The notes under the pieces were generated by a model. It did no database searches. It saw only the letters and a list, made by a program, of their open reading frames with translations, and was not told the DNA's origin. The translations under genes and the position numbers were made by a program. This document shows positions 1 through 24,686 of a stretch of DNA of 33,114 nucleotides, in pieces; within the stretch, counting starts at the first letter, position 1; each line of letters begins with the position of its first letter. The stretch lies in NCBI GenBank assembly GCA_007135805.1, contig SLID01000087.1, forward strand, positions 1-33,114, written 5' to 3'. This stretch comes from Candidatus Omnitrophota bacterium. Lineage in GTDB: Bacteria > Omnitrophota > Gorgyraeia > Tantalellales > Tantalellaceae.

Positions 1-1250
1 ACAGCTGGACGCTGCTTACCATGACGGATCTTGTAACGGGTATGGTAACGGAAGTTACCGCATACCACGCTTCCGGGGCTGTAAGTGAAGCGCTGATAAG
101 TGACGCCGCGGGTAATGAGCTGGCGAGAATAACGTATGAAGACGCGGATGCGCGTAACGAGTTTGGTTTTATGGCGAGTCAGGAAATACTTGACCCGGAC
201 GCGGATGATTTTGGTGTTACGTATACGTATACTTGGGATATAGATGCTATGGAAGTTACTGGAGTTACCGATCAGGATCCGGCGGTAATATTTGTGTGGC
301 AGGCCGGTAGAGACAGTGAAGGTAATTACATTTTGGGTGATGTGATAAGCGAGACGGTGGAAGGTGAGACTCGTAAAGAGTTTGAGTTTGAAGTGCCGGC
401 CGCGGGTCAGGTTACGATGACCGAATCGGTATGGGACGCGGATGCCGGCGCGTGGAGCGCGATACGCGAATATGTATATGATTATGAAGGTGACAGGACG
501 GATATGGACAGCTGGACGCTGCTTGAGATGACGGATCTTGTTATTGGAATAAGGCTGGAAGTTGTTGATACTTATGCTTCCGGGGCCATACGCGAAGCTA
601 TCATGTATGATCTTGATGGTAACACTCTTTCCAGGATAACGTATCAGGACGATGGTGAGCGTAACGATTTTGGTCTTATGGCGACACAGGAAATACTTGA
701 TGCGGACGCGGATGATTTTGGTGTTACGTATACGTATACGTGGAATATCGAGGCCATGGAAGTTACGGGCGTGACCGACCAGGATCCGCCGGTAATATTT
801 GTGTGGCAGGCCGGTAGAGATAGTGAAGGTACCTATACGATAGGTGATGTGATAAGCGAGACTGTGGAAGGCGAGACGCGTAAAGAGTTTGAGTTTGAAG
901 TGCCGGCCGAGGGTCAGGTCACGATGACTGAATCGGTATGGGACGCGGATGCCGGCGCGTGGAGCGCGATGCGTGAATATGTATATGACTACGAAGGTGA
1001 CAGGGCGGATATGGACAGCTGGACGCTGCTTGCGATGACGGATCTTGTTATTGGAATAAGGCTGGAAGTTGTTGATACTTATGCCTCCGGGGCCATACGC
1101 GAAGCTATCATGTATGATCTTGATGGTAACCCTCTTTCCAGGATAACGTATCAGGACGATGGTGAGCGTAACGATTTTGGTCTTATGGCGACACAGGAAA
1201 TACTTGACGCCGACGCGGATGATTTTGGTGTGATCTATACTTATGTTTGG
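1..1250 (+). repeat. 507-bp (169-codon) in-frame tandem repeat, about 2.4 copies, continuing off the left edge
   Basis: Sequence at position 1 recurs at 508 and 1015 (ACAGCTGGACGCTGCT), giving an exact 507-bp period. Copies start at ATG 21, 528 and 1035. The third stays nearly identical to the second for about 200 bases (I count four substitutions) and then diverges around 1231-1250. The protein unit is beta-rich with YTYTW, VIFVWQAGRD and REYVYDYEGD motifs. A whole number of codons per unit lets copy number change without breaking the frame. High DNA identity implies recent duplication. Confidence 0.95.
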
Positions 1251-4200
1251 AACCATCCGTCTACGGGAAGGGTTACAGCCACAACAAATGACGGCGTGAC
1301 CTATACATGGGCCTATACGATGGATGATAACAGAAACCCGATATTGGGCGATCTTCTTGAAATGACGGACGTGGATGGCGTCCTGACGAGGTTTACCTGG
1401 GATCAGCCCGAAGCTGGCCAGGTTACGGGCGTCACGAGTGATGGATATACTTATGTTTGGACCTATTATTTAGGACCCCGCGGCAATCAGATAATAGACG
1501 AATTGATATTTTCACAACTTACCGGGGAAAACTATTTCACATACGACTGGGACCATCCGGATCATCCGGGCATGCTGGTTGTCACGGAGAGGATGGATAA
1601 TGGCGCATTGGTCGGTATCTATGTTTTCGCGTACACGTCGATGTCGGATTTCGACACTTGGGAACTGCGTTTTGACATACGGCCCGATGGAAGCTATCTG
1701 GTAATAGACGAGTATCATCAGCCGTCCGGCGCCATATTGTCGGCCAGGGAATTTGATGCCGAGGACGAGCTCGTAAGGACCATTACTTACGCGGACTCGG
1801 GTGTCCGCAACGAGTACGGGCTTATATATATCGAAGAATTGGAAAATCCGGATGCTTTCGGGATGATAAGGTACGTGTACTATCTTGAAAGATTTTTTGA
1901 AGAGGACGGGGGAGAGTGGGGCAGGCTCCGGTCAGCGCATCACGAGGATGGGCACAGTTTTGAATATGTAAGCTATTATACCGATACCGACAGAAGGGCT
2001 GAGGTCCATGAGTTTGACTCTGACGGGAATCTTACCGGGGAGCTTTTCTACTACTACGATGATGATGGCGAAGAGATAGGTTTCAGGAAGTACTCGTATG
2101 AAGATTGGCAGACCGGAGAAATAATGAACGAGGTCCAGCAGATACTGGAACTTCGGAAAAGAGACGGAGAATACGCTATTTATTATAAAAAAGACATGCA
2201 AACGGGTAAAGAGTTCTGGTACCAGTGGGACCAGGAAGCCAGGGTTCTTAAGCCGTGGCAGATGGTGCTGTACGTTTTAGCCTGGATAGTTGACGCGATC
2301 ACCTGGCTTGTAGGTCTTCCGTTCGGATGGAGTGGGACAGATCTTGCCGGACCCATAGGGATGACCGATAGTTTTATGCTGACAGTTTATGACCCTCACG
2401 GGGCAGGGATTGTGGTTAATGTGGATCGCTGGACGGGTCAGGCCGAACTTGCCTATCAGGATGATCGCTGGAACGCTTTTCTTTTCGACCCGGACGCTAA
2501 CCCGTTAGATCCTACTGAGGAATGGGTAGGGTTGAGCGCATGGGAAGACAGGCATATTCCGGCAGTCGCTCTCAGCCAGGCAGACAGGCAGAAATGGCAG
2601 TTGCCGGCCTGGGATGAGAGTCGTGTTGAAACGCCGCGGGACGAGGTGCGTCCTCCCGTGAAGGACGCGAGGATATTGGTTGACGAAAGCGGTGAGGAGA
2701 TAGATCTTAACAAGTATTCTCCCGCAATGGCCCGGTTTATCGAGAAACACGCGAAAGTAGAAGATGTCGAACATGTGGATGTTCCGGAGGAGATCGTTGA
2801 GATCCCCGAAGTCATTAGTGAGCCCGTTCCGACCTTGATGGAAGATGTGATACGCGCGCTGGTAGCCGCGGATAAACTTCCTGAGGGAAGCGATATACAG
2901 GCGGGCTTATACGATAATGTGGTGGCTTTAAGGGATGGGGACGGATATGTTACGGGATATATTGTATATCGCCGGGATGACAGGATGATAAATTACGAGG
3001 AAATAGAGCTTGATATGTACGGAAGTGTGACCTATTCCCAGGCTTTCACCGCGGAAGATACCGCTCCCCGGGATTTTGAAGTATCTTTTGAGCTGCCCAA
3101 CGGTATTACCTACACGTTTACTGAAGACGGTTATGTCCAGACTGAAACTACGCCTTACGGTTATAGTTTTTTCGAGTATTATGAGGACGGATCTTTTTCA
3201 GAATACAGATATGACAATGCCACAGGTACCGCCAGGGCGTTTACATATAATATTGACGGCTCATATGTAGAGACAGTTTACGGTGATGATGACCTCGCGC
3301 TTGGTCAGATATCATATGACTCTTTCGGGAATATTACAGATGTCTCCTCAGCTCAGGAAGACATAGCCCCGGAAGGATATCTTCCTTTTCCCTGGGCTGC
3401 CGTTTTTCCGGCGTTTTTTAGCGCTATGCCGGAAGTTTCCATTGCTGACGGTGTAAGTTTTCATGGTGGGGATGTTTACGGATGGCTTCTCGGAGGAGAT
3501 CCGGAAAAGACCATAGCTAATCCCGCTGTACAGGAAGCGCTCAGGGCGTATCTCGCGGACTGGCAGGGTAAAACGGCGAGGCTTTTTATGTTCGGAGACG
3601 GAAGGGGGATCCTGGAAGTGCGTGACGGGAAAGTGGTCATGACACAGGATGTATCCGAGATCCGTCAAAATATGCGTACACTTCTCGAGATATTCCGGGA
3701 ATCGGGTGTTTCAGTCCGCCTTGATATTTTTGACCATAAAGCTCCCCGGGAGATATTGTCGCAACCTCGGGAAGTCTGGAATATGATGGCTCCGATAGTG
3801 AGCGAGATAGGCGAGTTTTCGGATGTTGTAAGATCTGTAAGCCCTGTGAATGAACCGCAATTCGCCGAATTCGAGGGCAGGCCGTCTTTTGATAATATGT
3901 TCATGTTCGTTTCCCGGGGGATACTTGCCATAAGAGATGGTAGTTCTCTTCCTGTGAGCGTAAGTGTGAGTACTGATATGCTGGGGGATCCCGTCAGGAT
4001 AGCCGAACTCGAAAGGTTTTACACATTTTTCAGCATCCTTAGGGAAGGAGATGTCGCTGATGTGCATCACTACGGGGATGTGCTCCCTTCAGTGGAAGAA
4101 CTCAGGGAGCTCTACGGTATCCGGGAAGGGGTAAATTTCATAGTGAGCGAGGTCTGGCCCAAAGATTTTGACGATGTCTCACGCGTAGCCAAAGATAAAG

Positions 4201-7200
4201 GGTACAGTGAGGTTTACATATGGGATGATGAAATTGATCTTTTCCGCGACGAGGTTGCTCCTGTTGAAGTAACTGTTACTCCGGAAGTTGAGATCGCCCC
4301 GGAACCGGAAATCCCGGCAGTCGCGTATGTAGAAGACGAAGAAATACCGGTTACGCCGGTTGACCCGGTCGATCCGGCCGTCGGATTTATGCAGCTTCTT
4401 CGCGGTCACACGCAACAACGCCGAGAAAGGCTGGAGCAGTTTTACGCTAATATGGGGTTGGATGAGAATGTATCCGTACATGTCGCTGAAAAGGACGGTG
4501 TAATGCTGGATGTTACTACCGGCAGTTACGAAAACGCTTTCATGGTAGCCGTTCTCCCAGAATCTGCCTCAAGTGTCCGAAGAGGAGAGATTTCAGAAAT
4601 GCCGAAGGGAACCGTAGTTTACGGCGATGGTTTCAATGAGGCGAGAGAGCTGGCTTTTTACAATATTGAGGATGGAGAATACAGGATAATAAGGCCTTCG
4701 GACGATATGTACAGGATACCCGATGCCGTACGTGTTGATGGGGTGATTTACCACCTCGAGATAGCGCGAATGATAACTGAAGAACGCGAAACTGGAAATA
4801 TTAGTGTTTATCCCAGCAGAGAGTCAGCCCGTCTGGCTGTTGAAGGGTTCCATGAAGGTGTTGTTTACGCGAAAGACGGAACTCCGGTAAGTCCTTTTCT
4901 GAGGATGCCGGCAGAGGTCATGTCTCCCGTTCATTTTCTGGCGGGTGTTCTGGAAAGCAATCCGGGTACCATGGTGACTACGTCAGCAGGGGACTATTTC
5001 TCCGCGGACAGGCTGGTCCTCGGGTCCCACTTAGGAAGCGGCAGAAGAGTAGATGTTATAGAAAGCGCGCGGGAAACAAGGATAATGCCCTCCGCTGATG
5101 AGGCAAGAGGGTGGCAGATAAGCGAAAATACGGTTACAGATACCCAGGGCAGAGAGTGGGATATCAGCAGGGATGTCTACATCGCGGTTTTGGACGAGGC
5201 TGGAGAGGTGGATCGGTATTATCCGGATATGAGCGATTTTGTCGAGGATTTTATGGCTACTCACGCTGTGTACGTACCTGCCGCCAGCGGGGAGTGGGAG
5301 CTTGTGGATATGTCGCCGGTCGCGGACCTTCATGAGACTCAACTTACGGACGAGATACGGACGGCAAAGGAAGCCATGAGCCTTTACCAGATAAGTTTTT
5401 CTGAGGGAATAACTTGTGATTACAGGGGAGAGGTATACACGCTTCAGGCTGATGGCCGATGGCTTTCTTCTGAGGGCGCCGTCCTTACCGAGGTAGGGCC
5501 GCGGCATCGCAGAGCACCGATGCCCGGTATTTCCAGGGAGATAGATCCCGCGGCAGTTCTTGCTTTGATACGCGCCGGAGCGGTCTTTAAGGATGCCGGT
5601 CTTGAGATGTTCGCCCATGATAAAGCAGAGAGAAGAGGCAGGAACATCGAACGTGAGCTTACGGTCATTCTTTCTAATATGCGCTATCTTCACGAAGCTG
5701 GGATAAGGGATCTGGCGCTGGCTGACCATCTTTCGCGAGAAGAACGGGAAGATGTCATCGCGCGGATAATATCGAATACGCCGCAAAGTATGAGGGCTTA
5801 CCTGAATGTTATCGCCTCTCACGGCCAGGCGGATACAATTTCTAAACAAGGTGTTGAATTGATGCTATCCCTGGGCTTGCCGGGATTTGTTCCTTCTCTT
5901 AGTCTGCAGGTTACAATAGACCCAGCCAGAGAAACCAAGGTAAGAGAAGCTATCGCTCGAGCTGAGAAACAAGGGCATTTTGTAGATCATCAGATGGCCA
6001 GAGATCTGCTGGACCTACTTGACAGACACTTTATCCGAGAACAGGCCGTAGAGACCATAGACCTTTTGAACGAATATGCCGCGTCTATACGGAAAGATCT
6101 TGCGGATGGATTAGTGGAACCTGGAATGGAACAGATGGCGCAGTCAAAGATAAGGGGCATAGACTCCGATATCGCGCACATGCGCAACATGGTTTCCGAC
6201 GCCGAAAGAGATATAAGGGTGCTTTTATCGATGGATCCTGAAAGAGAAATAGGTATCGTTTCCGAAATAGATCTGGAAACCATATTGAAAGCCGCGGAAA
6301 AAATGGGTTTTTCCCAAAGGGTAGCCCGGGACATACTGGGTCTTAAACTGGCCGAGAAAGAGGCCGGTATAGCGGTTGAGATAGCTAGTGACAGAAGAGC
6401 CACGACCAGGATAGCTATAGGGATACCTTTCGTATTCTCCTTTTCAAGGGCCAGACCCACGCAACTCCAGACGGCGGTAGCTACGCTTTACGCTGAGATG
6501 GAAGAGAAGGTAGCCGAAATAGCCACGCACAGCAGGGTAGGGGAACTCAGGCGAAGGGCGGATCTTGTAAAGAGTCTGTTTGAGACTTATGAGGACATGA
6601 TAGAAACTTTGCAGAGCAGAGTCGGTGTTCTTGAACAGAACCTGGCCGAGACTGTAAGGTGGCAGATAGATAGCGGAGTGAGGTATACATACCTGCTTGA
6701 GGTTAGAGAGGAACTTTTGGAAGCAAGAACGGCTTTACGCCACGCGCAGAACCTGAGGGAAAGCCTCGAGGCCGAATACGAGCAGGAATTGGCGATGCTG
6801 GATACATACATAGGTCCCGATACGAGAGAAAGAATGGGCGTTCTTACGCCGGAGGCGGCCTGGGAGTTAGCTAAAGAAAAGTTTTACAGCGCCAGCGGGG
6901 ACGGACGGGAGTCCGGTTATTATCTTGAGATGCTGAATGGATTGCTTTCCGCCTGGGAGGACGAAGGCAAAAAAGTCAGCGCTCAACGTTTCGGGATAAG
7001 TTTCACTCAAAGCGGGATCACCCTTGACGCGCGTCTGGTAACTCAGATATTCGCCAGGCCCAGCATGATGGAGTATCTGGCTAAGGAGAGGGAAAAGGCA
7101 ATGATGCTGGATAGGCATGGTCTTGCTCTTCTTGCCCAGGATTTCAAAATACTGTGGAACAGTGTGGCCTCTCTTCAGGAAAGGTATGAATCACAGAAAG

Positions 7201-16200: not shown

Positions 16201-19200
16201 CCATAAATCTGCTGGATTACATTCAGTACGCCCGAAGATGGATAACTTTTCTGCGTTCGGAACAAGGCAGGGAATACAGGTTTTTTTCAAGACTGCATTA
16301 TCCCTCCGACCAGCACAGGCGTGACACTATGCCGACATTCTGGGTATCCGGACCTGATTTTTACTGGGGAGAGACGGTCCAGGGTTACGACCCCAAAAGA
16401 AGATCTTTCGTTGGGCTTGTGCCGGGTAAGGAAAGTGAGTTCAACAACATAGTTTCGGGGGCCCCAAACGAGGAATTGGAAAGGATAAGGGGACTCCAGG
16501 AAAGAATGATGGAGGATCAGACTAGAGTGGCTACCAGTATCACGAGGATAACGGCAAGGGTTTCGGACACAAATCGTGAGGATCCGGCGTTCGAGGCCAT
16601 GCTTGCTTCCATCAAGGGTTTGAGAGAAGAATACGTCGCGATAACTGATGAGTACAACTTGCTGGAAGAAAAAGCTTCCGCGCTTGAAAAAGAGCTTGAA
16701 AAAGATCCTTTCGCTGAAAGGGACCGGCTGGACTCTGGGCTCAAGAAACTCGAGGAAGAAAGGGCCAGTCTTGTGAGAAAGGCCTACCTTTCCGGAAGTG
16801 TTGATGAATCGACGAGGGAACAACTCGCACGTGAGATCGATAGTAAAAACAAAAAAATAACAGACACAAGGGCGAAGTACGCCGAAGTGAACGCCAGGAT
16901 AGGTTTTGGGATTGTCTCACCGAATATCCCCAGGAATGGTCCCAGGGAATATTCCTCAAAGTGGGGTATGCGTATGACCGATCCCATACAGCCGCTCGTG
17001 CCAATAAACAACGTTTACCATTATCTGCCCCTTTTGAGGAAAAGGGTTGAAATGCACCGGATGGAGTCTCAGAAAAGGGCGGGAGAAGAGATACTTCCCG
17101 AAGATTTTCAAAGAGTAACCGAAGATCTCACACGGCTTACTGAGACTACCCAACAGTCCACTGTAGAGGGATGGATGGGGCTTGGCGGGGCAAATCCCGA
17201 GAATACGAGTTACCCCGGTACTATACGCAAGCGGCATCCCTGGAAGATAGTCGCTTTAGGAGCCGCAAGTGTGGCTTTATCGTTCATTGTATACTTTGCC
17301 CGTCCGGTAATATCTTCCGCATGGCAAATGGTACCTGTCCTCCCTGAGCTTTCGCTCGGCGCGGCCTTGCCGGCTATGCTTTTCGCTTCCGGTACGGCTA
17401 TGCTCATAGTTATAGGTGTTTTCAAGCTCATGCTTTTTGTGTTCGGTTATTTCACAGGACACGACGAGATACAGGACCAGGACATAGCTGATTTTGTGCC
17501 GGCGCATATACTTGACAGGGTGTTATCGGAAGTAGCGTCTGAACTGGAGAGTGAAGGGAAAATGGTGCCTGAAGAGCTTATGGAATACAAGAAGGAAGTT
17601 GACCCCGAAACGCGAAAAGAACGCGCGGCTGAAACGTACATAAAGATAGGTAAAGAATACCAGAAAGCCACCAGGTGGGGTGAAGCTTTAGCCAAGGTGA
17701 TCTATTACGGCCGTATGATAATCAATATGTTCACGGCGGGACTTGTTTTCAGTGAAGCTTTGAAAAAACCCATGCCTTCTGACTGGGTGACTTACAGGGC
17801 GCGTTTGCAGCATAATCTGGACGACATAATAAAGATAGCGAACATGACCCATGATGTCGATGGTATAAAAGGAAGGAAGAAACTGCTTGACGCTTTCAGG
17901 GAAGCGGAAACCAACAGGGACCTGATATCCCAAAAATATCAGGAATTAACCGGTGAAGACGTTGGGCATTTTAACCAGAAGATGGACGAATTTAAGCTCC
18001 AAATAGTTGGATGGGAGAAATCCGAGAAAGGGTTTCTTGATTCGGGTAGAATGACGAACCTGGATATTCTGAGAGAGATCGACTATGACGTGCTCAAGGC
18101 CATTATAGAGACTCCGGCTATCGCGCACATGATATTTGACAAAGTGGTCCTTATGGATACGGTCTTCGGCCTCTTCGATCCTGAAGGGTGCGTGAGTGAT
18201 GTCAAGGCGACAATGGAATCGGCCGCGACAAGCCACCGTGGAATAGTGGACATAATACTGGTCATGGATGACGATGACCCCGCTACCTCAGTAATGCAGG
18301 AAAATCTGAAACCCGGCGGCAAACTCGAAAAATACGCCGAAAATGTGATCATATATACAGGTTCGAATTTTGGTTCCAACCTGGGGCTTAACCAGCGGAA
18401 AGTGCGTATGAAACCACCTATGAATGTTGAAGCCGTTCATCATTTAAAGACGCATTATGCCCAGATGAAGGTATCCCTGAAAGAGGCTAAAGAAAAAGGA
18501 CTTCCCGAAGAAGTTATACGCAAGCTAAGGGATGGTTCCACTTTGCCAAGTTTTGTCGAGCTTGTGGACCAGGAAGACAGGCTCCAGCCGCTTCTTCTTT
18601 CCTCAAAGTCAGCTTTGTGGTCAATGAGAGAACGTACCATAAACGACCAGATACGGATCCACGAGGAAAAGAAGATACAAGAAACTGCCGAGAATACAAG
18701 GGATAGGCGCAGGTGGTCGATCGATTACAGGAAAGCTTCGAGAGGCTTGGAAAGGGAGTATGAATCAGCTGTAAACGCCATGAAAGACCAGTTGGAAGGG
18801 CATGATGATATCATCACGCCAAAGGAGCTTAGAGGTCCTGAAGCTGACAGGTCCCAGGTTGAAGCTTACCTCGAGCAGGCCGGAACTGCCCGAAGGGTAA
18901 GATACATGCTGGATTCCTTTAAATATAGCTATAAGAACGTTGATTCTTACATACGTTCGGAGTTCAGAGAGAGGAATATGCCCGTTGTAATACAAACAGA
19001 GCTGAGGTTAGTTCCCATACAGGACTCTCGGTGGAGTTTTATGGCGCATCATGATTATCTTCTGTGGCATAACCAGATACAGCCCGGGCAGACATCCAAG
19101 TTCACTAAATTCCTTTTTCTCGGAGGAACCGGAAATGGTTTTAGGTGGGACATGCTGGCTGGGTCACGGCACGATTTCGTAACGGAATCCGTAACGGACA

Positions 19201-22200
19201 AAACAACGGGTGAAAAAACCGATGTGAAAGAGATGAAAAGATCTTTCCTTAATACACGCGCACAGCTTGACCACAGTTTGTTTACGTTGAGACAGGTTAT
19301 GCTGCGCGAGGAAACGAGAATGCATGAAGAGCTCAGAGAGAAAAGTCTGATAAGAAGGATAATTTTCCATCTGGACGTTTTTAAGAGATCTGTGACCGGA
19401 CGTGTCTCCGACTATACAAAGGTGATAATACCGTCAATGATATTTACAAGACATTTGAACTTTCTCGGACAAAGCGGAACATGGGACCTTTACAACATAA
19501 TAGAGGACTCCGAGCTCGGCAGGAGAATAGCCCAATATAAACTTATGTGTACACGGCTGACCGGTAAGTTTACACAGGTCCTTGAGGATGAACTTCCGGC
19601 TTTGAGCCCGGCCTGGTGGTATCAGAGGTCACGCTGGATAATAATGCAGACGTTCGGGGTGGTTATCTCACATCCCGCGGCCTTTTTTGGCTTTTTCGGT
19701 CAGTATCTTGGAGCCGGACTCGGGTGGATGCTCCTCGGTGGAAGAACAAGCGTGGGACTCGGTTTGATAGGCGCTGTCGTAGGTCTTTTGATCGGTTTTG
19801 AGGTTTTTTACCGAGCAGGGTCGTTCTTTAATAAGATGAGGGTCATGGCGGGCTACCAGAGAGGAGCCGCGTGGCAGATAGATCCTGTTGCGAGTATGGG
19901 CCGCTGGAGATTCCAGCATATAGTGCATCTGGCCGCGGCGGTTCCCGCGGTACTTATGACGGTGGTTACACTGGGTGTAGCGATATTTTACACCTTAACA
20001 AGCGGCGCCGGGATGATCTTCCCCGGGTTTGAGTATGCCGGAGGCCTGGGGTTGTTACTTATGGATGTCATCCAGTGGGGAAATACCTTCATACCTTTTC
20101 TGAACGGTTGGTTAGCGGGGACCATAATAGGTATGGTAGTGTTTTTCGCTCCCCCCATACAGCAGTCATTGCAGATGGTGTTCGCGGCCCTTCGGGCAAG
20201 TATAGTCGATGAAGAGTCTACTACTGAAGCTGTCGACACTTATATTTCCCAAAGGATCTTAGGCGGCCGAGAAATTATAGCGAAAGACAGGGAAATATTC
20301 GACAGTTTCGCGGACGGCTCTTTAGTATTGCCGCAGGATCTGGTCCCGATAAAAACTTTCGAAAAGGACTATTATGATACTTTGTTTGAGCTACGCCGCA
20401 TGGAACAGAGATACAGGGTGTCCAGGTTTTCAGAGAAGAGAAAGATCTACAGGGATATCTGGGAAACCAAGAAAAATATAGAAAAAATACAGCAAGAGAT
20501 CGAAGCATTCAAAAAGTCATATCCGGATAAATACGAACTGTACATGTCTGAATACCGGAACCCGCTTGCCTTATTGAGAGTGAGTGAACATTATTCGGTC
20601 TTCAGCAATGACGATTACGTTGTTGATGTGCTGGACAGGTGTAAAAATAATATGAGGGCAGCGATAGATCTTGTTAAAAAGGAAGACGCCCGGGAGGCCC
20701 TTGCTTTCCATGCTGATGAAATTAATGATGTGGAAGGGCTAAGGCAACTTCTATTGGATGCCAAGGATGAAGCGGATGATGGAGTTGCATTGGATGGCAA
20801 GGCAAGGGCCATTCTTGAATTGAGGAAAGCGATCGGTATAAGTGACGCCGAGATCAGCGGCGCGACACCAAGTCAGATACAAAAAGCCGTTGCCGCCGCC
20901 CTCAATGAAAAGCTTGGTTCCGGAGAGATCCTTGATGGGTTTTTCACCGAAAAATACGGTAATGTGTATGACAGTAGCTCTCTCGAAGATAATATGAGAC
21001 GCGCGCTGTCAGTAATAAGCGGTTTGCGTAAAGAAGTGGAAAAATCAAAGGAAGATTTGGAAAAAGCTAAAAATGAGAAAAAAGGAAAAACAGAGATCAA
21101 GGCGCTTGAAAAGAAAGTAAAGCAAAATAAGAACGTATTCGAAGAAAAGGTCTCCAGTAAGGATATTGTTCGATTGAATATGTCGATATTGGAGTTGGTT
21201 TACGGTGATTTTGTGGAAAGAGCGAAAGACTCTCAGATAGGCGATAACTATTTCGGGTGGTCTCATTTTGGTGAACAAGCCGGTATTAAAAATGTGACCA
21301 CAGCTCTGGGGGCTCACAGGAAGCAGTTCGTTTCGGGTATAAAGCAGGACCTTAAAGTCTTGAGGGATGTTCGCAGGCTTGTCAGGGGAGATGTCGTAAT
21401 GCCGGCTGTCATTCCTTTGGTATTGTTGGGCATGTCTTTATCAATGACCCTTTTCAACTTTACTGTCGCCGGACGCGTCGCTCTCGGCATTACTCTATGG
21501 CTTGTCGGCCTGGGGGTTTACCAGAGGATACTCGAGCGTTTTGCGGATGGATCCCAGTCCGCTGGTTGGTTGGGCCGGAGCGCGTATCATCTAAGAGAAA
21601 GAGCGAGGATAGGACGTCTTCCTTATCATATGCTGAGGGTAATGGTCAGGTCGCCCCTGCAGATAGATTATTTCATGCATCTGATACCGGCGTCTTTTCT
21701 CTCTCTTTATATGTCAACTGACAGGTGGGTCGGGGAAGAATTCTGGCCAAGAGGCCGGCAATCGCTTAAGGCATTGGCTAAAGGAGCCAAGTTGATAAGT
21801 GGTGGATTGTCCGATACCTACACAGCATTGAAGGACAGAGCGAAAGTTTACGGCAAGGAAAGATTTTCTCTTATATCTCTTCTTGGGGTGGCTATGATAG
21901 GAATAGCTGTCCTACCTCTGTGGAACATAACAAGAACGACCCCGGGGCTCAGGGAGGGTCAGGCTGTAGCGGACCTTGCCAGGGAATCGTACAGAAGGGG
22001 TGCGACAGATAGATTCCTGGAATATTCAGATATCCGTCAAGCTTTCGGGGCCGCGGTGGGCGCTATAGAGTCTTATGAAAAGGCCTATTTGGCCGGTGAT
22101 CGTGAAAGTGCCGAAAAGCTGTGGGAGACGATGGTCCACGCTGTCAACGGGGTCAGTGTTTTCGCGGCAAGAGGCGAGGATGAGATAAGGTGGAGAGATA

Positions 22201-24407
22201 TACGGGTACGGTTTGATGATTTCAGGCTTTACGAAGAAATGACAAGGCAGCTTCAGGAAATGTTTGTACGTACAGGTCGTCCTGGGGATTATTACACTTT
22301 TATGGGACTGGAAGGTCCTAAGTCTATAGATGTTTCATCCTGGGTATTGCAGGCTCCCGGTGCGAGTGTTGTCTCCAGGGACGGTGAGATTATCGGGATA
22401 AATGTGACAGAGCTCGGGAACTATGACTCGTTTGAAATGGGAGTCAGTGGTAAATTCGACCTTTCCGAAGGCCGCGAGCTGGTTTTTAGTTTCAGGGTTG
22501 ACGGGGACGAGTCGGCTAAAGAGCGCATCTCAACACGCAGATGGTCGGTAGTTCTTGAAGATAGCAAGGGCAACAAATTCCTGGAACGCTATAAAGATAG
22601 AGATCTTTTGGCGCTCGTGCCTGAGAGGCATATGGGTGAGGGTGATTTTGTTGTAAGGGCAACTCCGAGACCTTATGAAACTGATGTAGATTTCAGTGAT
22701 ATTCACAGGATCTCCATAAGGTTAGAAGGCCAGGGAAGTCTAGATGGGTCGATTTTTGTAGCAGAGCCTGTTATACAGGCATTCCCGGTTTCGACTCACG
22801 CTTTGGGCGAAGATATGCCCGATATGGCGGTTTCTGTATGGGACGGCATAGGAGAATTTGTGGAAAATATCGCTGGAAGGACCGTCAGGCCTATATCTGC
22901 CGGCGCGCGTTCCCTGTTGTTAGCGGGCGTGCTTTTTGGAGGACTTTTCCTTAGTTCGATGTCTGCGGCCGCGGAAATGACGGGAGATGCCTTGCCTGTA
23001 TGGGGAACACAGCTTTTGGGAGCGATTCCCGTAGCGGAGTTCTGCGGAATGATAGGTTTTTCTGTCCCGCTGATCATAGCCGCGGGTTTGGGAATAATAG
23101 CTCTTAGACTATATTCAGTGGACATGAGGGCAAGGACCATATTAGCCCCTCTTTATTCCCTAAGAGAAAGAAGGGAATACGCTAAAAGAATGGAGATACA
23201 GGCTATTGATGGCTTAGTGTCGGATCTGGCCGCGAGAAAAAGGGCGCAACTCGAAGAAACGGTTATCGATGACAGAGGGGTTATTCATGTCATGGGTATC
23301 GAGATGGCCGGTGACGTAGATGAGAATCAGGCCTACCTTGAGGATAACTTTGAGGCTGTTATAGGAGCTGGAGTGGTCCTGGTAGCCCTGCCTGCCGGAG
23401 CGCCTACTCAGGAGAATCTTGACCGGCTTGATGTCGTCCGCAGGGAAAACAATACCCTGTGGTCGAGTTTTGTGGATTCTGAAGCCCTGGAAAGCGCGGG
23501 CGGAAGGGAAAATCTGGGAAGGGTCCTAACCGACATGACCCGTCAGATAGAGCGGGGTGAAACAGGACAGTTTATAAAGGAAAACTACGAAAGGATAAAA
23601 GAACTTTCCGCTTTGGCCGCGGATGACAAAAATATTGAGGATATGGAGGCCATAAGCCGGGAATGGAAGAAGATGCTGGATAGTATAAAACTTCCCGCGA
23701 TGCTTCCCGAAATAGGGCTTCTCAGCCTTTACAACCTCAGGATGACCGAAAGGGTGGAAAGACATGTAAGAACGTCACCCGGACTTGACAGGACAACGGT
23801 TGCCTACATAAACGATGACTCCAGGAAAGAGAGCCTCATGCACATCACTGTGGGGTCGATAGCTGAAGTCAAGATGCAGGCCGAGGCCTTCAGGGCCAGA
23901 AACCCGGAGAACGTCAGGATCAGGATAACCCTGGCGGCGGGTCACGAGGTGCCTGAGAAGGAACTCGCGCTCATGCGGAGCGACAAAGCTATGCTTCTCG
24001 AAAAGATGGAGATAGACGGCATCTTGAGCGAGAACGACCTTGAGATAGTCGCGGCCCATGAAATAGGGACCGGATGGACAGAGAACACCATGCAAGAACT
24101 CAAGGAGTTCGATGGCGCGGTGATAAGCGTTAACAAATATGACGATCCGGATTCGGTGGACGCGGAAAGAGAGGTCATACCCGGGGTTATACTGATGGGC
24201 TATAACCATTACGCTACCGCTGATGTGTTCGATGTGGCTCTGCAGGTCCTGGCGCATGAGGGTGAGCTGGATATGCTGTCGGCGACTGTCGGGCTCTCAG
24301 CGTCGGATAAGGGTATCGTTATCTACTTCAGGAAGATCGAACCCGTGGACATGACGGAGCTCAGCGCCGAGTTCGAAAGATACAGAGAGGTGCTGATAAG
24401 AGCGTAA
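3..24407 (+). CDS. Giant multidomain trans-envelope protein with TolC-like, glycosyl hydrolase and glycosyltransferase 2 modules (5' partial)
   Basis: One uninterrupted frame of over 8,100 codons ends at TAA 24405-24407. It is not complete: bases 3-20 read SWTLLT in the same frame, matching the SWTLLE and SWTLLA that precede the next two repeat copies, so the ATG at 21 is internal and the real start is upstream. Residues below are counted from that ATG. Order: tandem beta repeats (1-750), GH-A type barrel (1125-1410), six TolC/OEP-like half-units (1919-3080), helical stretch (3140-3510), beta repeats (3515-4410), peptidoglycan-binding domain (4494-4563), membrane helices from about 5160, GT2 core (6030-6560), more helices, a jelly-roll-like domain (7437-7589) and a C-terminal alpha/beta domain (7737-8128). 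The best guess is an envelope-spanning glycan synthesis or export protein. Single domain calls are supported by motifs; the combined function is inference. Several stretches (about 4380-5770, 9430-10560, 13720-15490) match no family I recognise. Confidence 0.93.
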   Translation, partial: SWTLLTMTDLVTGMVTEVTAYHASGAVSEALISDAAGNELARITYEDADARNEFGFMASQEILDPDADDFGVTYTYTWDIDAMEVTGVTDQDPAVIFVWQAGRDSEGNYILGDVISETVEGETRKEFEFEVPAAGQVTMTESVWDADAGAWSAIREYVYDYEGDRTDMDSWTLLEMTDLVIGIRLEVVDTYASGAIREAIMYDLDGNTLSRITYQDDGERNDFGLMATQEILDADADDFGVTYTYTWNIEAMEVTGVTDQDPPVIFVWQAGRDSEGTYTIGDVISETVEGETRKEFEFEVPAEGQVTMTESVWDADAGAWSAMREYVYDYEGDRADMDSWTLLAMTDLVIGIRLEVVDTYASGAIREAIMYDLDGNPLSRITYQDDGERNDFGLMATQEILDADADDFGVIYTYVWNHPSTGRVTATTNDGVTYTWAYTMDDNRNPILGDLLEMTDVDGVLTRFTWDQPEAGQVTGVTSDGYTYVWTYYLGPRGNQIIDELIFSQLTGENYFTYDWDHPDHPGMLVVTERMDNGALVGIYVFAYTSMSDFDTWELRFDIRPDGSYLVIDEYHQPSGAILSAREFDAEDELVRTITYADSGVRNEYGLIYIEELENPDAFGMIRYVYYLERFFEEDGGEWGRLRSAHHEDGHSFEYVSYYTDTDRRAEVHEFDSDGNLTGELFYYYDDDGEEIGFRKYSYEDWQTGEIMNEVQQILELRKRDGEYAIYYKKDMQTGKEFWYQWDQEARVLKPWQMVLYVLAWIVDAITWLVGLPFGWSGTDLAGPIGMTDSFMLTVYDPHGAGIVVNVDRWTGQAELAYQDDRWNAFLFDPDANPLDPTEEWVGLSAWEDRHIPAVALSQADRQKWQLPAWDESRVETPRDEVRPPVKDARILVDESGEEIDLNKYSPAMARFIEKHAKVEDVEHVDVPEEIVEIPEVISEPVPTLMEDVIRALVAADKLPEGSDIQAGLYDNVVALRDGDGYVTGYIVYRRDDRMINYEEIELDMYGSVTYSQAFTAEDTAPRDFEVSFELPNGITYTFTEDGYVQTETTPYGYSFFEYYEDGSFSEYRYDNATGTARAFTYNIDGSYVETVYGDDDLALGQISYDSFGNITDVSSAQEDIAPEGYLPFPWAAVFPAFFSAMPEVSIADGVSFHGGDVYGWLLGGDPEKTIANPAVQEALRAYLADWQGKTARLFMFGDGRGILEVRDGKVVMTQDVSEIRQNMRTLLEIFRESGVSVRLDIFDHKAPREILSQPREVWNMMAPIVSEIGEFSDVVRSVSPVNEPQFAEFEGRPSFDNMFMFVSRGILAIRDGSSLPVSVSVSTDMLGDPVRIAELERFYTFFSILREGDVADVHHYGDVLPSVEELRELYGIREGVNFIVSEVWPKDFDDVSRVAKDKGYSEVYIWDDEIDLFRDEVAPVEVTVTPEVEIAPEPEIPAVAYVEDEEIPVTPVDPVDPAVGFMQLLRGHTQQRRERLEQFYANMGLDENVSVHVAEKDGVMLDVTTGSYENAFMVAVLPESASSVRRGEISEMPKGTVVYGDGFNEARELAFYNIEDGEYRIIRPSDDMYRIPDAVRVDGVIYHLEIARMITEERETGNISVYPSRESARLAVEGFHEGVVYAKDGTPVSPFLRMPAEVMSPVHFLAGVLESNPGTMVTTSAGDYFSADRLVLGSHLGSGRRVDVIESARETRIMPSADEARGWQISENTVTDTQGREWDISRDVYIAVLDEAGEVDRYYPDMSDFVEDFMATHAVYVPAASGEWELVDMSPVADLHETQLTDEIRTAKEAMSLYQISFSEGITCDYRGEVYTLQADGRWLSSEGAVLTEVGPRHRRAPMPGISREIDPAAVLALIRAGAVFKDAGLEMFAHDKAERRGRNIERELTVILSNMRYLHEAGIRDLALADHLSREEREDVIARIISNTPQSMRAYLNVIASHGQADTISKQGVELMLSLGLPGFVPSLSLQVTIDPARETKVREAIARAEKQGHFVDHQMARDLLDLLDRHFIREQAVETIDLLNEYAASIRKDLADGLVEPGMEQMAQSKIRGIDSDIAHMRNMVSDAERDIRVLLSMDPEREIGIVSEIDLETILKAAEKMGFSQRVARDILGLKLAEKEAGIAVEIASDRRATTRIAIGIPFVFSFSRARPTQLQTAVATLYAEMEEKVAEIATHSRVGELRRRADLVKSLFETYEDMIETLQSRVGVLEQNLAETVRWQIDSGVRYTYLLEVREELLEARTALRHAQNLRESLEAEYEQELAMLDTYIGPDTRERMGVLTPEAAWELAKEKFYSASGDGRESGYYLEMLNGLLSAWEDEGKKVSAQRFGISFTQSGITLDARLVTQIFARPSMMEYLAKEREKAMMLDRHGLALLAQDFKILWNSVASLQERYESQKEIVELAGENVANAERTRDGLKINDARGLLASERQRLQTLRAELDNARTMFTGLIGPSFAELVSTEALESMVMPSPDPLLMRKVHAISLEQQPLLRKAEILGDAALDIGVGFTYDDGFSYISATTDFFNMSRIFAALEGDVRSEMARYQLEQEPSRIRELMVMTESRLRQAEDNLDAQTRELALHGRRIMSLVAEREDTLTPQLDVTEYDLNRELIEYRIKENQVRDAYRWVEEEATRAAIFSSVQYRDEDLPAISEERMRELEAKLELLNASRKVFEGLGVVVGATVTRGYEFDEKANERLNQLEEAAYLVNYIAGLETWQLAFPGSSTVLRVPFGKAGDTPVNPNLIGFVFDAWREHLAPQRVVKVEGILTLNFSITVADLYDAARHRQLAEASRQRARQERLRDIERVVRMASTYHVGLRRLDVIKKEINRIEAELDVARERAIEGRSLDVSRVDRMERHLIGKMGELNAAEEAVQEARSLFRLYLSDRMELKYISVDGLEDPSFIASIPAEQLDELWREFEEKHPLLREMNARVRASELGYEGSTWLAQLLGFYMSFNILDGTVGAGINLRLFDSAQPSRQFEEFVNMVSTKALREHAGKELANELASIARNLPRLVERVDSAREAWMAAEDHYQRVREQHLRGEKTLDDITTAMLAVNAQQDRFLAALGDFLRESVSFSEKMNYLGIELGVSELRSLDVPSHQVEMEAFRVVPEPVSESEMARILREPPAVPRVEKVVTTGEISAAVDRYLSAMGSFGDVGSVLRLKSRQEFRELFALMVNSMELDASSANQHISRMAYWRSRTNRHKALFEGQDFFAMFPDRNTRLDVSGRINDPETGMYPDMSTMLGLDNFLAGLEGYYETFWGQSKEDARKMADEFFTRSLEVLRDRTSADYHLWRDNVQQMMGTVGLQLTSTTLNTSRASMIPYAGILGMDLDPWNENDAAVLDLLYNYISLSGLTDQEFTSLLELAVMASPILDANCGDVRDASRWSAESLLGEAEAAKLAFMMKSGYSEREIAIEESRARERIRLSRMLDTAVAIAEGASKGESLGRALSSGKYLKDISGTLRLLDNILKGLDVSSVTDYTESLDMLFTAFYYMFEFGSADIAVSNGQIFILLNEDYQLSELELIRAGHTLVFSLADGNMMEIRRDMSIRDGRITADGNVWKKFEYESFTGTVNLNFMGEGFERGYREFAPGSEKVTITEYDEQGEVFGVGYTFVDESGKERVSLSPMSNQIVEGLDEPQQVVWASFYDRESTTEKYLADLDISANRAVVRPTIAERPILSERTYRPGGRHDHLIMQKFGIFNAVDPIENKFFQIAEDGEMLWGMSLEYTDTFQHGKLVIFQRVGDRTIRKTEYAAERGKTLNEYLREGYDGLEWITDGVYAVRDGVDIFGYEREIWDALEYRHVNGEFMNVTERKVIDYHGQEAIRYVSEGRDEYGRAYERAHTVLKKNGNLLEDMKISTVRGEETYPGSEGLGSGEFVQYSKETSVILPGEKLSVSRVKDAESVHPGESVLLTSEDFVDTEALFDSTSVERHYIDGEPRVVKEEREIMDSDGHFLYREIKEYSYSWETREMRQDSVEILEYRADDEYDHTVDDEITILRVEYSSEYPSGRLMERGIYRNRERFVYLASEEIATEEKFNYLDGTVSTIEYYVVRHIDRSRDDENITVESEIREEDGRRLQIERTSRTTKRGVPIEADTLSSTVRNIEQRGDIFDEAQSFDRAEIFSFDKIDSSFEMVDGAGRVLAEVDVDAGTVMVYMGGGRESGAAYVTMELPAEPYVGINVRNRLDENNNYEKIEEVYGIYDASGKPYYKSIRESYPDAPTRAEAHTILIYDESAGEVHEWLYVVGTGDDADPVQRVIEETVPVVEKTSAITRYHDARDDEYRVIHERSRARRYYTYYEYDEIGYMLDLPSGTLPVLSETNLLLDDGTISDEILERVVYFYDDETEERFIVNVTDIKEVSGVQCSYEILKYLAENKVMVPIYRTLVPEEMEFEAQQWLTTISWIDDSVSETPRLTEVIETVEEPAPVVPERLVDEVTVTPEVVGTLLGQEITKEGQGVVNRFQGLWKTLNDSITDRAYVIGRGRNTDMASVRAVQEVFWTLNTGDVQSRFEKSVFVDGLWGPITEGVARDFQSEHGQVVDGLVGEETGGAMLGALLNVRVEGLVDPETVDPVTEIEVIPDVDISAPEYDTLRDEPEAPVGRFIVDYEDRNEDALITLVRQRHEDLPEGMLITVPLTGKRGSYEAEKVFLGKGVYTFYGVAGRKRVREFVEMPNDTVTIDQETGEIIEVNPAIVQKWEESQSVVFAHDMQDETVVVNIPGVYGETSVAGNPEREKGLFYLQKKVHLPGRVVAFVIAEFKVNLNGARNVSEALDNVISKINPLTGEIDFSREESRLENLGTLQNLYFSAYVGEDTEELYQMIVGVDEQGNIGRNITLHPMDADFTVNVMEGREFKNISVREAAGLTQLRKMDEGIALSDVGILEGLIPQGLEDSMFSLWAEEEMSWKKTVKSEGDIEVKYYRPGETEHFKVTWEVGANEEALKMVQDIQGLSEAGNLKDRDFIDKIYTLIKTDKASVEDIVSAIDVMTGLIGTLKGVEIGGSELEAILRHELVPGAEVRTNVLEWVLSNEQEIRKYMADHGVSQARYIRDLAGTFRAVQNYSSLERYIRAINRNEEIPYDELTPLGRAALHFEEILNIASNQMASGIRDTRSGGVYDQLLGREADRIELSDDITPADAPEIVEIGTHRVSSDRMQSYAGYFGNAAFGALMLALGIGLFFRVKGVRKHYKELKEMTKISPPDALEPAFPESALISEDFDKMWSDMGGQITAFQKGMWEAYRVIEPYRVQPDGKKHKPAQRHTIWNIAFYWVSGLGILAVNMVRGGGVFSYGYGPSVLVPALVLTAMGALGSWKYFADNILILFPSRRAERRENALAFLEKNIDNLEIYLRKLEAQSESYGFTSEEWRELLTFPVHAPFAEPEDVVELQVQTINLLDYIQYARRWITFLRSEQGREYRFFSRLHYPSDQHRRDTMPTFWVSGPDFYWGETVQGYDPKRRSFVGLVPGKESEFNNIVSGAPNEELERIRGLQERMMEDQTRVATSITRITARVSDTNREDPAFEAMLASIKGLREEYVAITDEYNLLEEKASALEKELEKDPFAERDRLDSGLKKLEEERASLVRKAYLSGSVDESTREQLAREIDSKNKKITDTRAKYAEVNARIGFGIVSPNIPRNGPREYSSKWGMRMTDPIQPLVPINNVYHYLPLLRKRVEMHRMESQKRAGEEILPEDFQRVTEDLTRLTETTQQSTVEGWMGLGGANPENTSYPGTIRKRHPWKIVALGAASVALSFIVYFARPVISSAWQMVPVLPELSLGAALPAMLFASGTAMLIVIGVFKLMLFVFGYFTGHDEIQDQDIADFVPAHILDRVLSEVASELESEGKMVPEELMEYKKEVDPETRKERAAETYIKIGKEYQKATRWGEALAKVIYYGRMIINMFTAGLVFSEALKKPMPSDWVTYRARLQHNLDDIIKIANMTHDVDGIKGRKKLLDAFREAETNRDLISQKYQELTGEDVGHFNQKMDEFKLQIVGWEKSEKGFLDSGRMTNLDILREIDYDVLKAIIETPAIAHMIFDKVVLMDTVFGLFDPEGCVSDVKATMESAATSHRGIVDIILVMDDDDPATSVMQENLKPGGKLEKYAENVIIYTGSNFGSNLGLNQRKVRMKPPMNVEAVHHLKTHYAQMKVSLKEAKEKGLPEEVIRKLRDGSTLPSFVELVDQEDRLQPLLLSSKSALWSMRERTINDQIRIHEEKKIQETAENTRDRRRWSIDYRKASRGLEREYESAVNAMKDQLEGHDDIITPKELRGPEADRSQVEAYLEQAGTARRVRYMLDSFKYSYKNVDSYIRSEFRERNMPVVIQTELRLVPIQDSRWSFMAHHDYLLWHNQIQPGQTSKFTKFLFLGGTGNGFRWDMLAGSRHDFVTESVTDKTTGEKTDVKEMKRSFLNTRAQLDHSLFTLRQVMLREETRMHEELREKSLIRRIIFHLDVFKRSVTGRVSDYTKVIIPSMIFTRHLNFLGQSGTWDLYNIIEDSELGRRIAQYKLMCTRLTGKFTQVLEDELPALSPAWWYQRSRWIIMQTFGVVISHPAAFFGFFGQYLGAGLGWMLLGGRTSVGLGLIGAVVGLLIGFEVFYRAGSFFNKMRVMAGYQRGAAWQIDPVASMGRWRFQHIVHLAAAVPAVLMTVVTLGVAIFYTLTSGAGMIFPGFEYAGGLGLLLMDVIQWGNTFIPFLNGWLAGTIIGMVVFFAPPIQQSLQMVFAALRASIVDEESTTEAVDTYISQRILGGREIIAKDREIFDSFADGSLVLPQDLVPIKTFEKDYYDTLFELRRMEQRYRVSRFSEKRKIYRDIWETKKNIEKIQQEIEAFKKSYPDKYELYMSEYRNPLALLRVSEHYSVFSNDDYVVDVLDRCKNNMRAAIDLVKKEDAREALAFHADEINDVEGLRQLLLDAKDEADDGVALDGKARAILELRKAIGISDAEISGATPSQIQKAVAAALNEKLGSGEILDGFFTEKYGNVYDSSSLEDNMRRALSVISGLRKEVEKSKEDLEKAKNEKKGKTEIKALEKKVKQNKNVFEEKVSSKDIVRLNMSILELVYGDFVERAKDSQIGDNYFGWSHFGEQAGIKNVTTALGAHRKQFVSGIKQDLKVLRDVRRLVRGDVVMPAVIPLVLLGMSLSMTLFNFTVAGRVALGITLWLVGLGVYQRILERFADGSQSAGWLGRSAYHLRERARIGRLPYHMLRVMVRSPLQIDYFMHLIPASFLSLYMSTDRWVGEEFWPRGRQSLKALAKGAKLISGGLSDTYTALKDRAKVYGKERFSLISLLGVAMIGIAVLPLWNITRTTPGLREGQAVADLARESYRRGATDRFLEYSDIRQAFGAAVGAIESYEKAYLAGDRESAEKLWETMVHAVNGVSVFAARGEDEIRWRDIRVRFDDFRLYEEMTRQLQEMFVRTGRPGDYYTFMGLEGPKSIDVSSWVLQAPGASVVSRDGEIIGINVTELGNYDSFEMGVSGKFDLSEGRELVFSFRVDGDESAKERISTRRWSVVLEDSKGNKFLERYKDRDLLALVPERHMGEGDFVVRATPRPYETDVDFSDIHRISIRLEGQGSLDGSIFVAEPVIQAFPVSTHALGEDMPDMAVSVWDGIGEFVENIAGRTVRPISAGARSLLLAGVLFGGLFLSSMSAAAEMTGDALPVWGTQLLGAIPVAEFCGMIGFSVPLIIAAGLGIIALRLYSVDMRARTILAPLYSLRERREYAKRMEIQAIDGLVSDLAARKRAQLEETVIDDRGVIHVMGIEMAGDVDENQAYLEDNFEAVIGAGVVLVALPAGAPTQENLDRLDVVRRENNTLWSSFVDSEALESAGGRENLGRVLTDMTRQIERGETGQFIKENYERIKELSALAADDKNIEDMEAISREWKKMLDSIKLPAMLPEIGLLSLYNLRMTERVERHVRTSPGLDRTTVAYINDDSRKESLMHITVGSIAEVKMQAEAFRARNPENVRIRITLAAGHEVPEKELALMRSDKAMLLEKMEIDGILSENDLEIVAAHEIGTGWTENTMQELKEFDGAVISVNKYDDPDSVDAEREVIPGVILMGYNHYATADVFDVALQVLAHEGELDMLSATVGLSASDKGIVIYFRKIEPVDMTELSAEFERYREVLIRA
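1251..2255 (+). other. YD/RHS-like beta-repeat region of giant 1
   Basis: After the tandem array the protein keeps a looser repeat built on aromatic-rich beta strands: YTYVWNHP, YTWAYTMDDN, FTWDQPEAGQVTGVTSDG, YTYVWTYYLG, FTYDWDHPDHPG. Units are roughly 50 residues with a G-x-V-T turn between strands. This looks like YD/RHS or propeller-type extracellular repeats. No RHS core consensus or toxin tip is visible, so the family is only suggested. It is probably the surface or periplasmic part of the protein. Confidence 0.5.
2262..2333 (+). other. Isolated hydrophobic helix in giant 1
   Basis: Residues about 748-771 read MVLYVLAWIVDAITWLVGLP, long and hydrophobic enough for one membrane helix apart from one Asp. 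It lies between two regions that otherwise look exported. It may be a true membrane pass, a monotopic anchor or a buried helix; the sequence alone does not decide. Confidence 0.45.
3390..4250 (+). other. Clan GH-A type glycoside hydrolase (TIM barrel) domain
   Basis: Eight beta-strand motifs in the right order suggest a complete barrel: GVSFHGGDVYGW, TARLFMFGDG, VSVRLDIFDH, SVSPVNEPQ, PVSVSVSTDM, DVADVHHYGD, NFIVSEVWPK and YSEVYIWDDE. The NEP motif gives a candidate acid/base Glu1278 (3852-3854); His1349, His1350 and Tyr1351 sit on strand 6; Glu1377 in IVSEVW (4149-4151) is the candidate nucleophile; Trp1401 lies on strand 8. These are the hallmark positions of retaining clan GH-A enzymes such as GH5 and GH39. 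About 290 residues is compact but normal for the fold. Substrate unknown. An acidic Pro/Val linker follows at about 4255-4385. All key residues are present, so activity is plausible. Confidence 0.72.
5775..9260 (+). other. Six consecutive TolC/OEP-like half-units
   Basis: Six successive segments each show a pair of amphipathic beta strands flanked by long helices ending in a GL-x-L-type hinge, the layout of the outer-membrane efflux protein family. Approximate units are 5775-6245, 6268-6815, 6846-7365, 7424-7932, 7959-8668 and 8737-9260. Clear strand pairs are MLSLGLPGF/VPSLSLQVTID (unit 1), RIAIGIPFVFSFSRARP (2), RFGISFTQSGITLDARLV (3), DIGVGFTYDDGFSYISATTD (4), GILTLNFSITVADLYDAARH (5) and FYMSFNILDGTVGAGINLRL followed by FDSAQPSRQF (6). 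Unit 6 starts with HPLLREMNARVRASELG, very like the NP-x-L-x-AA start of family members. A normal TolC-type protomer has two such half-units and works as a trimer. The units are strongly diverged from each other at DNA level, so this is an old arrangement. Confidence 0.7.
9430..10560 (+). other. Unassigned alpha-helical stretch of giant 1
   Basis: This stretch is mostly helix-forming, with SRMAYWRSRTNRHKALFEGQ, a YYETFWGQSKEDARKMADEF segment and Arg/Glu-rich helices near 10250-10330. No membrane segments or catalytic motifs are recognised. It follows directly on the TolC-like array and may be its periplasmic extension or a connector. I do not recognise the family. Confidence 0.4.
10560..13250 (+). 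other. Long beta-strand repeat region of giant 1
   Basis: About 900 residues are dominated by charged, aromatic beta strands, for example FGYEREIWDALEYRHVNGE, YREIKEYSYSWETREM, TEEKFNYLDGTVSTIEYYV and ARRYYTYYEYDEIG. The style matches the RHS/YD-like strands at the N terminus but without strong sequence periodicity at DNA level. It probably forms an elongated beta structure outside the inner membrane. Family uncertain. Confidence 0.4.
13490..13710 (+). other. Peptidoglycan-binding domain (PG_binding_1 type)
   Basis: Residues about 4494-4563 carry the family pattern: VRAVQEVFW at the start, VDGLWGPITEGVARDFQSEH in the middle and VDGLVGEETGGAML at the end. The paired VDG-x-x-G-x-x-T turns are diagnostic of this three-helix wall-binding module. 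It is flanked by acidic Pro/Val linkers (VTVTPEVVG before, VDPVTEIEVIPDVD after). Peptidoglycan contact places this part of the chain in the periplasm. Confidence 0.82.
15499..16005 (+). other. First inner-membrane helix cluster of giant 1
   Basis: Three predicted helices: about 15510-15575 (AAFGALMLALGIGLFF), 15825-15880 (NIAFYWVSGLGILAVNMV) and 15915-16000 (VLVPALVLTAMGALGSWKYF). Helix 1 is followed by RVKGVRKHYK and helix 3 by PSRRAERR, so positive-inside bias puts the N terminus outside and the following coiled coil (about 16470-16900) inside. This is the point where the chain first crosses the inner membrane after about 5,160 residues. Confidence 0.7.
17230..20190 (+). other. Membrane-embedded family 2 glycosyltransferase (cellulose-synthase-like) module
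   Basis: Two helices (17238-17300, 17340-17460) lead into a cytoplasmic GT-A-like domain, then several helices (about 19640-20170), the layout of processive GT2 synthases. Signature positions are present: acidic run D6083-D6086 in LVMDDDDPA (18267-18278), GGTGNGFRWDML (about 19122-19155), E6495-D6496 in NIIEDSELGRR (the TED-type catalytic base, 19503-19508) and Q6535-RSRW6539 (19623-19637), the QxxRW acceptor-site motif. The gap from GTGN to the ED motif is about 120 residues, far longer than in BcsA-type enzymes, because of a charged insertion. The second DxD aspartate cannot be placed with confidence. Likely product: an exported polysaccharide or glycan chain of unknown type. Confidence 0.72.
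20290..21380 (+). other. Charged coiled-coil cytoplasmic linker of giant 1
   Basis: Between the post-GT2 helices and the next membrane cluster lies a helical, Lys/Glu-rich region. The strongest heptad-like stretches are about 20380-20520 and 21020-21150, the latter with a KSKEDLEKAKNEKKGKTEIK segment. Probably cytoplasmic. No enzyme motif seen. Confidence 0.5.
21390..23120 (+). other. Second membrane cluster with an intervening jelly-roll-like domain
   Basis: Helices at about 21395-21460 and 21470-21530 and a weaker one near 21670-21715 precede a helix at about 21865-21930. Then comes an exported stretch that includes a beta-sandwich-like domain (22330-22790): FDLSEGRELVFSFRVDG, RRWSVVLEDSKGNKF and DIHRISIRLEGQGSLDGSI follow the strand pattern of carbohydrate-binding jelly rolls. 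Two more helices follow (22905-22975, 22990-23110). A periplasmic sandwich tethered to helices beside a GT2 recalls BcsB next to BcsA, by analogy only. Confidence 0.5.
23230..24404 (+). other. C-terminal alpha/beta domain of giant 1
   Basis: The last ~390 residues are soluble, alternating strands (GVVLVALPAG, VRIRITLAAG, GAVISVNKYD, GVILMGYNHY, GIVIYFRKI) with helices. The end, IEPVDMTELSAEFERYREVL, resembles the end of the downstream giant protein (MAPVDYQALVDYNRALLRVL). It is likely cytoplasmic, after the last membrane helix. Family not recognised. Confidence 0.5.
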
Positions 24408-24599: not shown

Positions 24600-24686
24600 A
24601 TGCGATCTTTCAAGAACTCACTGATTTTGAAGATCATAAGCCTCCTTCTCGTAATAAGCTTCGTCAACCTTGACTTTGCCTGGGCA
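24600..24686 (+). other. N-terminal signal peptide of giant 2
   Basis: Residues 1-29 carry a basic start (MRSFKNS, Lys11), a hydrophobic core (ILKIISLLLVISFVNL) and an A-W-A end at 27-29, a plausible signal peptidase I site before Tyr30. Confidence 0.8.

Follow-up and report, generated by a model that had tools for sequence, protein, structure and literature searches.

The giant frame and its ends

The stretch of DNA analysed here (the window, 33,114 nucleotides) belongs to a Candidatus Omnitrophota genome of 1.63 Mb in 137 contigs that is 90% complete (G000). The window carries two long frames on the plus strand, 3-24404 (8134 aa) and 24600-32906 (2768 aa). The first, called the giant frame below, is open at its 5' end, where it is truncated by the contig edge. 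Window positions 1-112 match the end of contig C51 of the same genome (reverse strand) base for base, and the gene begins on C51. The joined frame encodes about 10,009 aa, and full-length relatives have 9507 to 10,591 aa. Since the window starts within 507-nt tandem repeats, these repeats were the probable cause of the contig break between C51 and the window. The following features were recognized (window coordinates).

3-24404, plus strand: giant open frame, continuing upstream on contig C51 (5738 to 3, minus strand) through an exact 112-nt contig-end overlap
69-1352, plus strand: three tandem 169-aa (507-nt) beta-rich repeats, spacing 507, 74-81% identity
2256-2324, plus strand: predicted transmembrane helix leading from inside to outside (aa ~752-774; score 2.04; N-terminal flank positively charged)
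3393-4262, plus strand: GH5-like GH-A barrel (aa 1131-1420); NEPQ at 3849-3860, SEVW at 4146-4157
5640-9347, plus strand: six TolC/OEP-like units starting at aa 1950, 2134, 2324, 2502, 2727 and 2946
10932-13262, plus strand: beta-rich module A (aa 3644-4420), kept in relatives with E down to 1e-40
13503-13694, plus strand: peptidoglycan-binding-like domain; marginal PF01471 match, 23.3 bits (cut-off 23)
13836-15476, plus strand: module B (aa 4612-5158), preceding the membrane part, kept in relatives
15507-17453, plus strand: helices preceding the GT2 and predicted to span the membrane (aa ~5171, 5272, 5302, 5748, 5799), separated by a cytosolic coiled region
17520-20222, plus strand: GT2 catalytic domain, then membrane helices (from motifs, homologues, hhalign and predicted fold)
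21375-21938, plus strand: predicted transmembrane helices (aa ~7131, 7154, 7288; hydropathy)
22290-22802, plus strand: beta-rich domain (aa ~7430-7600), jelly-roll-like, in a loop predicted to lie outside; kept in homologues
22908-23120, plus strand: final two predicted transmembrane helices (hydropathy)
23415-24404, plus strand: C-terminal domain also present in other giants of the group (G367, E 3e-16; weaker in G154 and G232)

The original prediction had let the chain start at 3390, a position that is near the GH-A domain and is not the start of the gene. On C51 an in-frame TAA (locus L157, 5739-5741, minus strand), which is either a genuine stop or an assembly error, lies directly before the giant frame. 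Before the TAA comes a frame of 598 aa whose start resembles a signal peptide; in the relatives this segment forms the N-terminus of the giant without a break. The N-terminal domain (signal plus about 500 aa) also starts several long ORFs of the same genome, at nine places on other contigs.

Homologues in other Omnitrophota genomes

When the GT2 core (aa 5900-6740) was used as query, homologues were found in 23 of 384 Omnitrophota genomes. The named genomes with such relatives are all Candidatus Omnitrophota, including Omnitrophus magneticus. With few exceptions the homologues are located in giant frames (the longest 26,281 aa) or in frames cut by a contig end; the shorter frames examined (G305, G365) reach the contig end, and the weakest match (G268) is a 343-aa frame resembling an ordinary GT2. 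The O. magneticus homologue (L073) is broken into several frames in the deposited contig.

Domain order is partly conserved across genera, and the N- and C-terminal domains are variable. The conserved order for which the original prediction had suggested comparing orthologues was found in part: the plan is similar but varies, in that the GH5-like barrel precedes the membrane part in some giants and follows the GT2 in others. Because homologues with similar order occur in other genomes, comparison of the sequences rules out a chance frame, and the claim that GT2, GH-A barrel and TolC-like array lie in one frame holds: the frame is real and conserved in the relatives. In some of these, cytosolic enzymes are fused behind the GT2 and membrane part, namely HPr with PPDK, or a cytidine deaminase. 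Fusions with HPr and PPDK domains, or with a deaminase and a NAGPA domain, were seen at L041, L058 (G236) and L034 (G367).

The GT2 core

The motifs DDDD (position 18267), VDQED (18564), GGTGNGFRW (GGTGNGF at 19122), IED (19500) and QRSRW (19623) are all present in the window protein and conserved across 10 homologues. Invariant in the latter are D70, D170/E172/D173, I481/E482/D483 and Q522/R523/R525/W526, and GGTGN.F is nearly so. The nucleotide-binding D, the DxD-type metal motif, the ED base and QxxRW of the family were all found in the window GT2. In an hhalign comparison with five ordinary GT2 proteins (one each of Shinella, Hyphomicrobiales, Nonomuraea, Listeria and Pseudorhodobacter), the WD.YN..ED...QRSRW (IED-QxxRW) part reached 97.5% (E 8e-12), and GGT.N.FR and D.ED matched collinearly at lower strength. 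No significance was reached with mixed GT2 proteins from the same genomes; it was the closer five-protein set that gave the match.

Pfam and NCBIfam scans of the window protein in 1000-aa slices detected no GT2 domain, and a search of PDB sequences with the GT2 profile gave no relevant match. PF13632 is touched by three of the 10 homologues, and in a whole-genome search the relatives G123 and G367 matched it at E 4e-6 and 9e-6.

An AlphaFold model built from six sequences was of middling quality (pLDDT 55, pTM 0.55). Its structure matches included ArnC (Z 9.4), GtrB (9.3), BcsA 4p00 (8.2) and the cyclic glucan synthase 8rfe (8.2), and the best rows were consistently GT-A or GT-A-like nucleotide-sugar enzymes. 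Foldseek returned no match with E below 0.16, and many of its top rows were GT-A-type enzymes. The predicted fold of the core is GT-A, and together with the motifs and the hhalign match it confirms the GT2 call.

The GH5-like barrel

NEPQ (aa 1283) and SEVW (aa 1382) align with the GH5 catalytic residues, and VHHY is aligned as well. A profile of five GH5 relatives matched the window barrel with an hhalign value of 94.3% (E 1e-7); as a control, five other pieces of the window protein gave at most 0.4% with the same profile. The Pfam and NCBIfam scans of 1000-aa slices gave no Pfam glycoside hydrolase match for the window barrel itself. In the relatives the assignment is clear, with PF00150 at 47 bits, above the cut-off, in G367 and O. 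magneticus. The GH-A barrel that had been proposed is therefore GH5-like by hhalign, and its relatives pass the Pfam cut-off. A GH5-like barrel with both catalytic glutamates was found in the window protein, G367, G363, G232, G236 and O. magneticus. In the last four of these it comes after the GT2, and in G363 it lies inside the loop, behind the beta-rich domain.

The TolC/OEP-like array

PF02321 matched the slice aa 2401-3400 with 30.8 bits (cut-off 22) in three stretches, which confirms the TolC-like array of the original prediction; this cut-off is likewise exceeded in giants of G141, G363 and G343. Six units, each with a hairpin between helices, were counted, mostly by eye, in the window protein, G363, G141, G343 and G197. 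An automatic count of beta-propensity peaks found six clear ones in the window protein and six that lead in G197. In G141 and G343 it found five together with weak ones, one unit being degenerate in each of these two arrays, and in G363 the count was ambiguous. Compared with a profile of 30 ordinary OEP units, unit 6 scored 96%, unit 3 89% and unit 1 weakly, and units 2, 4 and 5 matched poorly or not at all. A two-sequence profile of the array missed it in most relatives. AlphaFold, run on the single sequence without alignment, yielded no fold for the array (pTM 0.27) and drew only six helix pairs, with low confidence.

As in the TolC/outer membrane factor family, the array has helix pairs around a beta hairpin. 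The TolC trimer contains six OEP units, two per protomer, and the giant differs in having six divergent units in one chain. Because the numbers of units are equal, a single-chain TolC-like duct is possible, although the equality is no proof.

Membrane topology and the remaining domains

Topology was derived from hydropathy and flanking charge, not from a trained predictor. The predicted path leads to the outside at the helix at aa 754 and back inside at aa 5171, leaving the GT2 inside; the GH5 barrel is predicted outside at both of its sites, where topology could be judged. Hydropathy and flanking charges thus agree with the proposed layout, in which the GT2 is inside and the rest, with the GH5 barrel and the OEP units, outside.

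Upstream, on C51 (L157, 3-5738, minus strand), the frame encodes a SecA-like domain with GTGK, IDEFD, NVRGT and QLVGR motifs, which matches solved SecA at E 2e-8. It is followed by ten predicted helices with alternating positive sides, and the SecA-like domain would be cytosolic. A SecA-like domain was also found in a giant of G185, on the contig that carries the GT2 core in that genome. Neither this domain nor the ten helices were part of the original prediction, and the same holds for the cytosolic enzymes fused in some relatives and for the split GT2 locus described below.

The PF01471 match of the proposed peptidoglycan-binding domain is marginal and falls to 22.1 bits in a longer slice. 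Searches with modules A and B found no known family, and the beta-rich loop domain matched no family or structure. The identity of this conserved loop domain as a jelly-roll is plausible; in some relatives a GH5 barrel comes next.

Genomic neighbourhood

A check for separate bcs, alg or pga genes had been suggested with the original prediction. BcsB (PF03170) was not found in the giant's own genome (90% complete). The same genome has an ordinary split locus (L082, contig C58), in which a GT2 with QQYRW lies between an ORF resembling an outer-membrane barrel and a GH26-like ORF, both named from motifs only. Because of this locus, the giant is not simply a stand-in for missing genes.

In G367 and G141 an RND pair stands directly before the giant gene, and the coordinates indicate the same for G197; the RND operons of the relatives include OEP proteins of their own. 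The RND pair of the giant's own genome was considered as a preceding neighbour and rejected, since another ORF follows it.

Comparison with known systems

Like the Bcs, Alg and Pga systems, the giant has a processive-type GT2 (D, DxD-like, ED, QxxRW) beside membrane helices, and a glycoside hydrolase and a beta-rich domain that are, in its case by prediction, outside. Unlike in these systems, its parts are fused in one chain, and OEP/TolC-like units are found in place of the BcsC/AlgE/PgaA beta-barrel. From Bcs cellulose secretion it differs also by the BcsB result given above. GT2 and glycoside-active domains are likewise joined in one chain in the NdvB/Cgs cyclic beta-glucan synthases (compare the GT-A match to 8rfe) and in GH17-GT2 fusions. 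Compared with these the giant is three to four times longer, and it adds the OEP array, the wall-binding match and the SecA-like part. Its hydrolase is GH5-like, whereas NdvB/Cgs and the GH17-GT2 fusions have GH94/GH17.

Giant Omnitrophota ORFs have been linked to symbiosis or predation (PMC10066038, PMC12419801), and polysaccharide-synthesis enzymes in giant Omnitrophota proteins are mentioned in passing (PMC12419801). The present protein resembles such giants in its very long secreted or membrane frame, its common N- and C-terminal parts and its Omnitrophota genome. Descriptions of the published giants centre on adhesion or a few domains, and the architecture of the present chain was not found in the open-access literature searched (subscription journals and preprints were outside the scope).

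A proposed model for synthesis and export, and its alternatives

Taking the domains and their predicted topology together, synthesis and export by one chain is a plausible predicted function, and a trans-envelope chain of about 10,000 aa that makes and exports a polysaccharide is in our view the best single explanation, ahead of the three alternatives discussed below, even if we would give it somewhat less than an even chance. The GT2 core would polymerise sugar from nucleotide sugar at the cytoplasmic face, and the growing glycan would exit via the membrane helices next to it, a route known from processive GT2 synthases. In the periplasm it would meet the loop domain, which is beta-rich and carbohydrate-binding-like, and then the GH5-like barrel might trim or release it. 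The peptidoglycan-binding-like domain would anchor the chain to the wall, and the six OEP-like units, equivalent to a TolC trimer, would form one complete tube through the outer membrane by which the glycan leaves. We infer here an intact chain, a tube-forming array, the passage of glycan through that tube and the identity of the glycan. A complete envelope-spanning factory, with cytosolic SecA-like and GT2 parts, periplasmic glycan-handling domains and a six-repeat one-chain TolC-like tube, is a more doubtful proposition.

The GT2, GH-A and TolC calls and the topology speak for the one-chain reading as originally proposed; the split locus, the fused cytosolic enzymes, which do not serve export, and the additional SecA-like part with its ten helices speak against it or go beyond it. 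So do the RND pumps with their own OEP near the giants of some relatives, and the nature of the duct: known synthase systems have large beta-barrels, and no TolC-type duct is known in a synthase-dependent system. The low pTM of the array model, the poor OEP matches of units 1, 2, 4 and 5, the ambiguous or degenerate units in G363, G141 and G343 and the missing Pfam GT2 match of the window protein also count against the model.

Cleavage of the chain as a polyprotein is unlikely; the products would be a synthase, a hydrolase, an OEP protein and cytosolic proteins, working either as subunits of the usual kind or each by itself. The addition of HPr and PPDK or of cytidine deaminase in some homologues, enzymes unrelated to the rest, would suit a polyprotein or a mosaic protein, and the SecA-like domain with its ten helices would also fit cleavage. 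So would the stop codon that already parts the first 598 aa in this genome, where the relatives are contiguous. Against cleavage, neither a protease domain nor a conserved cleavage site could be recognised in the chain, and the order is partly conserved across genera.

It is similarly improbable that the GT2 and the GH5-like barrel work like a cyclic glucan synthase, making a periplasmic glucan or wall glycan, with the OEP array as a separate device, perhaps an RND duct. The match of the GT-A model to 8rfe and the RND pairs preceding the giants of G367, G141 and G197 are in line with such an arrangement; against it, the RND operons have OEP proteins of their own and the RND pair does not adjoin the giant gene in its own genome. 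Least probable is a mosaic surface or predation protein that uses GT2, GH5 and OEP parts for attachment or attack, with the array as an outer-membrane anchor and not an exit. The reported ties of giant ORFs to symbiosis or predation and the variable terminal domains would fit it, but the best-conserved part is an intact GT2 with membrane helices, which points to synthesis.

The complete factory, if correct, would be a system in which one chain both makes and exports the glycan. If the six OEP units form a barrel, the giant would be a TolC that occurs in nature as a single chain, and it would show that export across the envelope is possible without the assembly of separate subunits. With its catalytic residues identified, this giant offers a concrete and testable role for a giant Omnitrophota gene.

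The next gene (24600-32906, plus strand, 2768 aa) encodes DUF218 and MbnB/TglH-like domains, an HD-like stretch and a cytidine deaminase; it has a signal-like start and a C-terminal domain akin to that of other giants.
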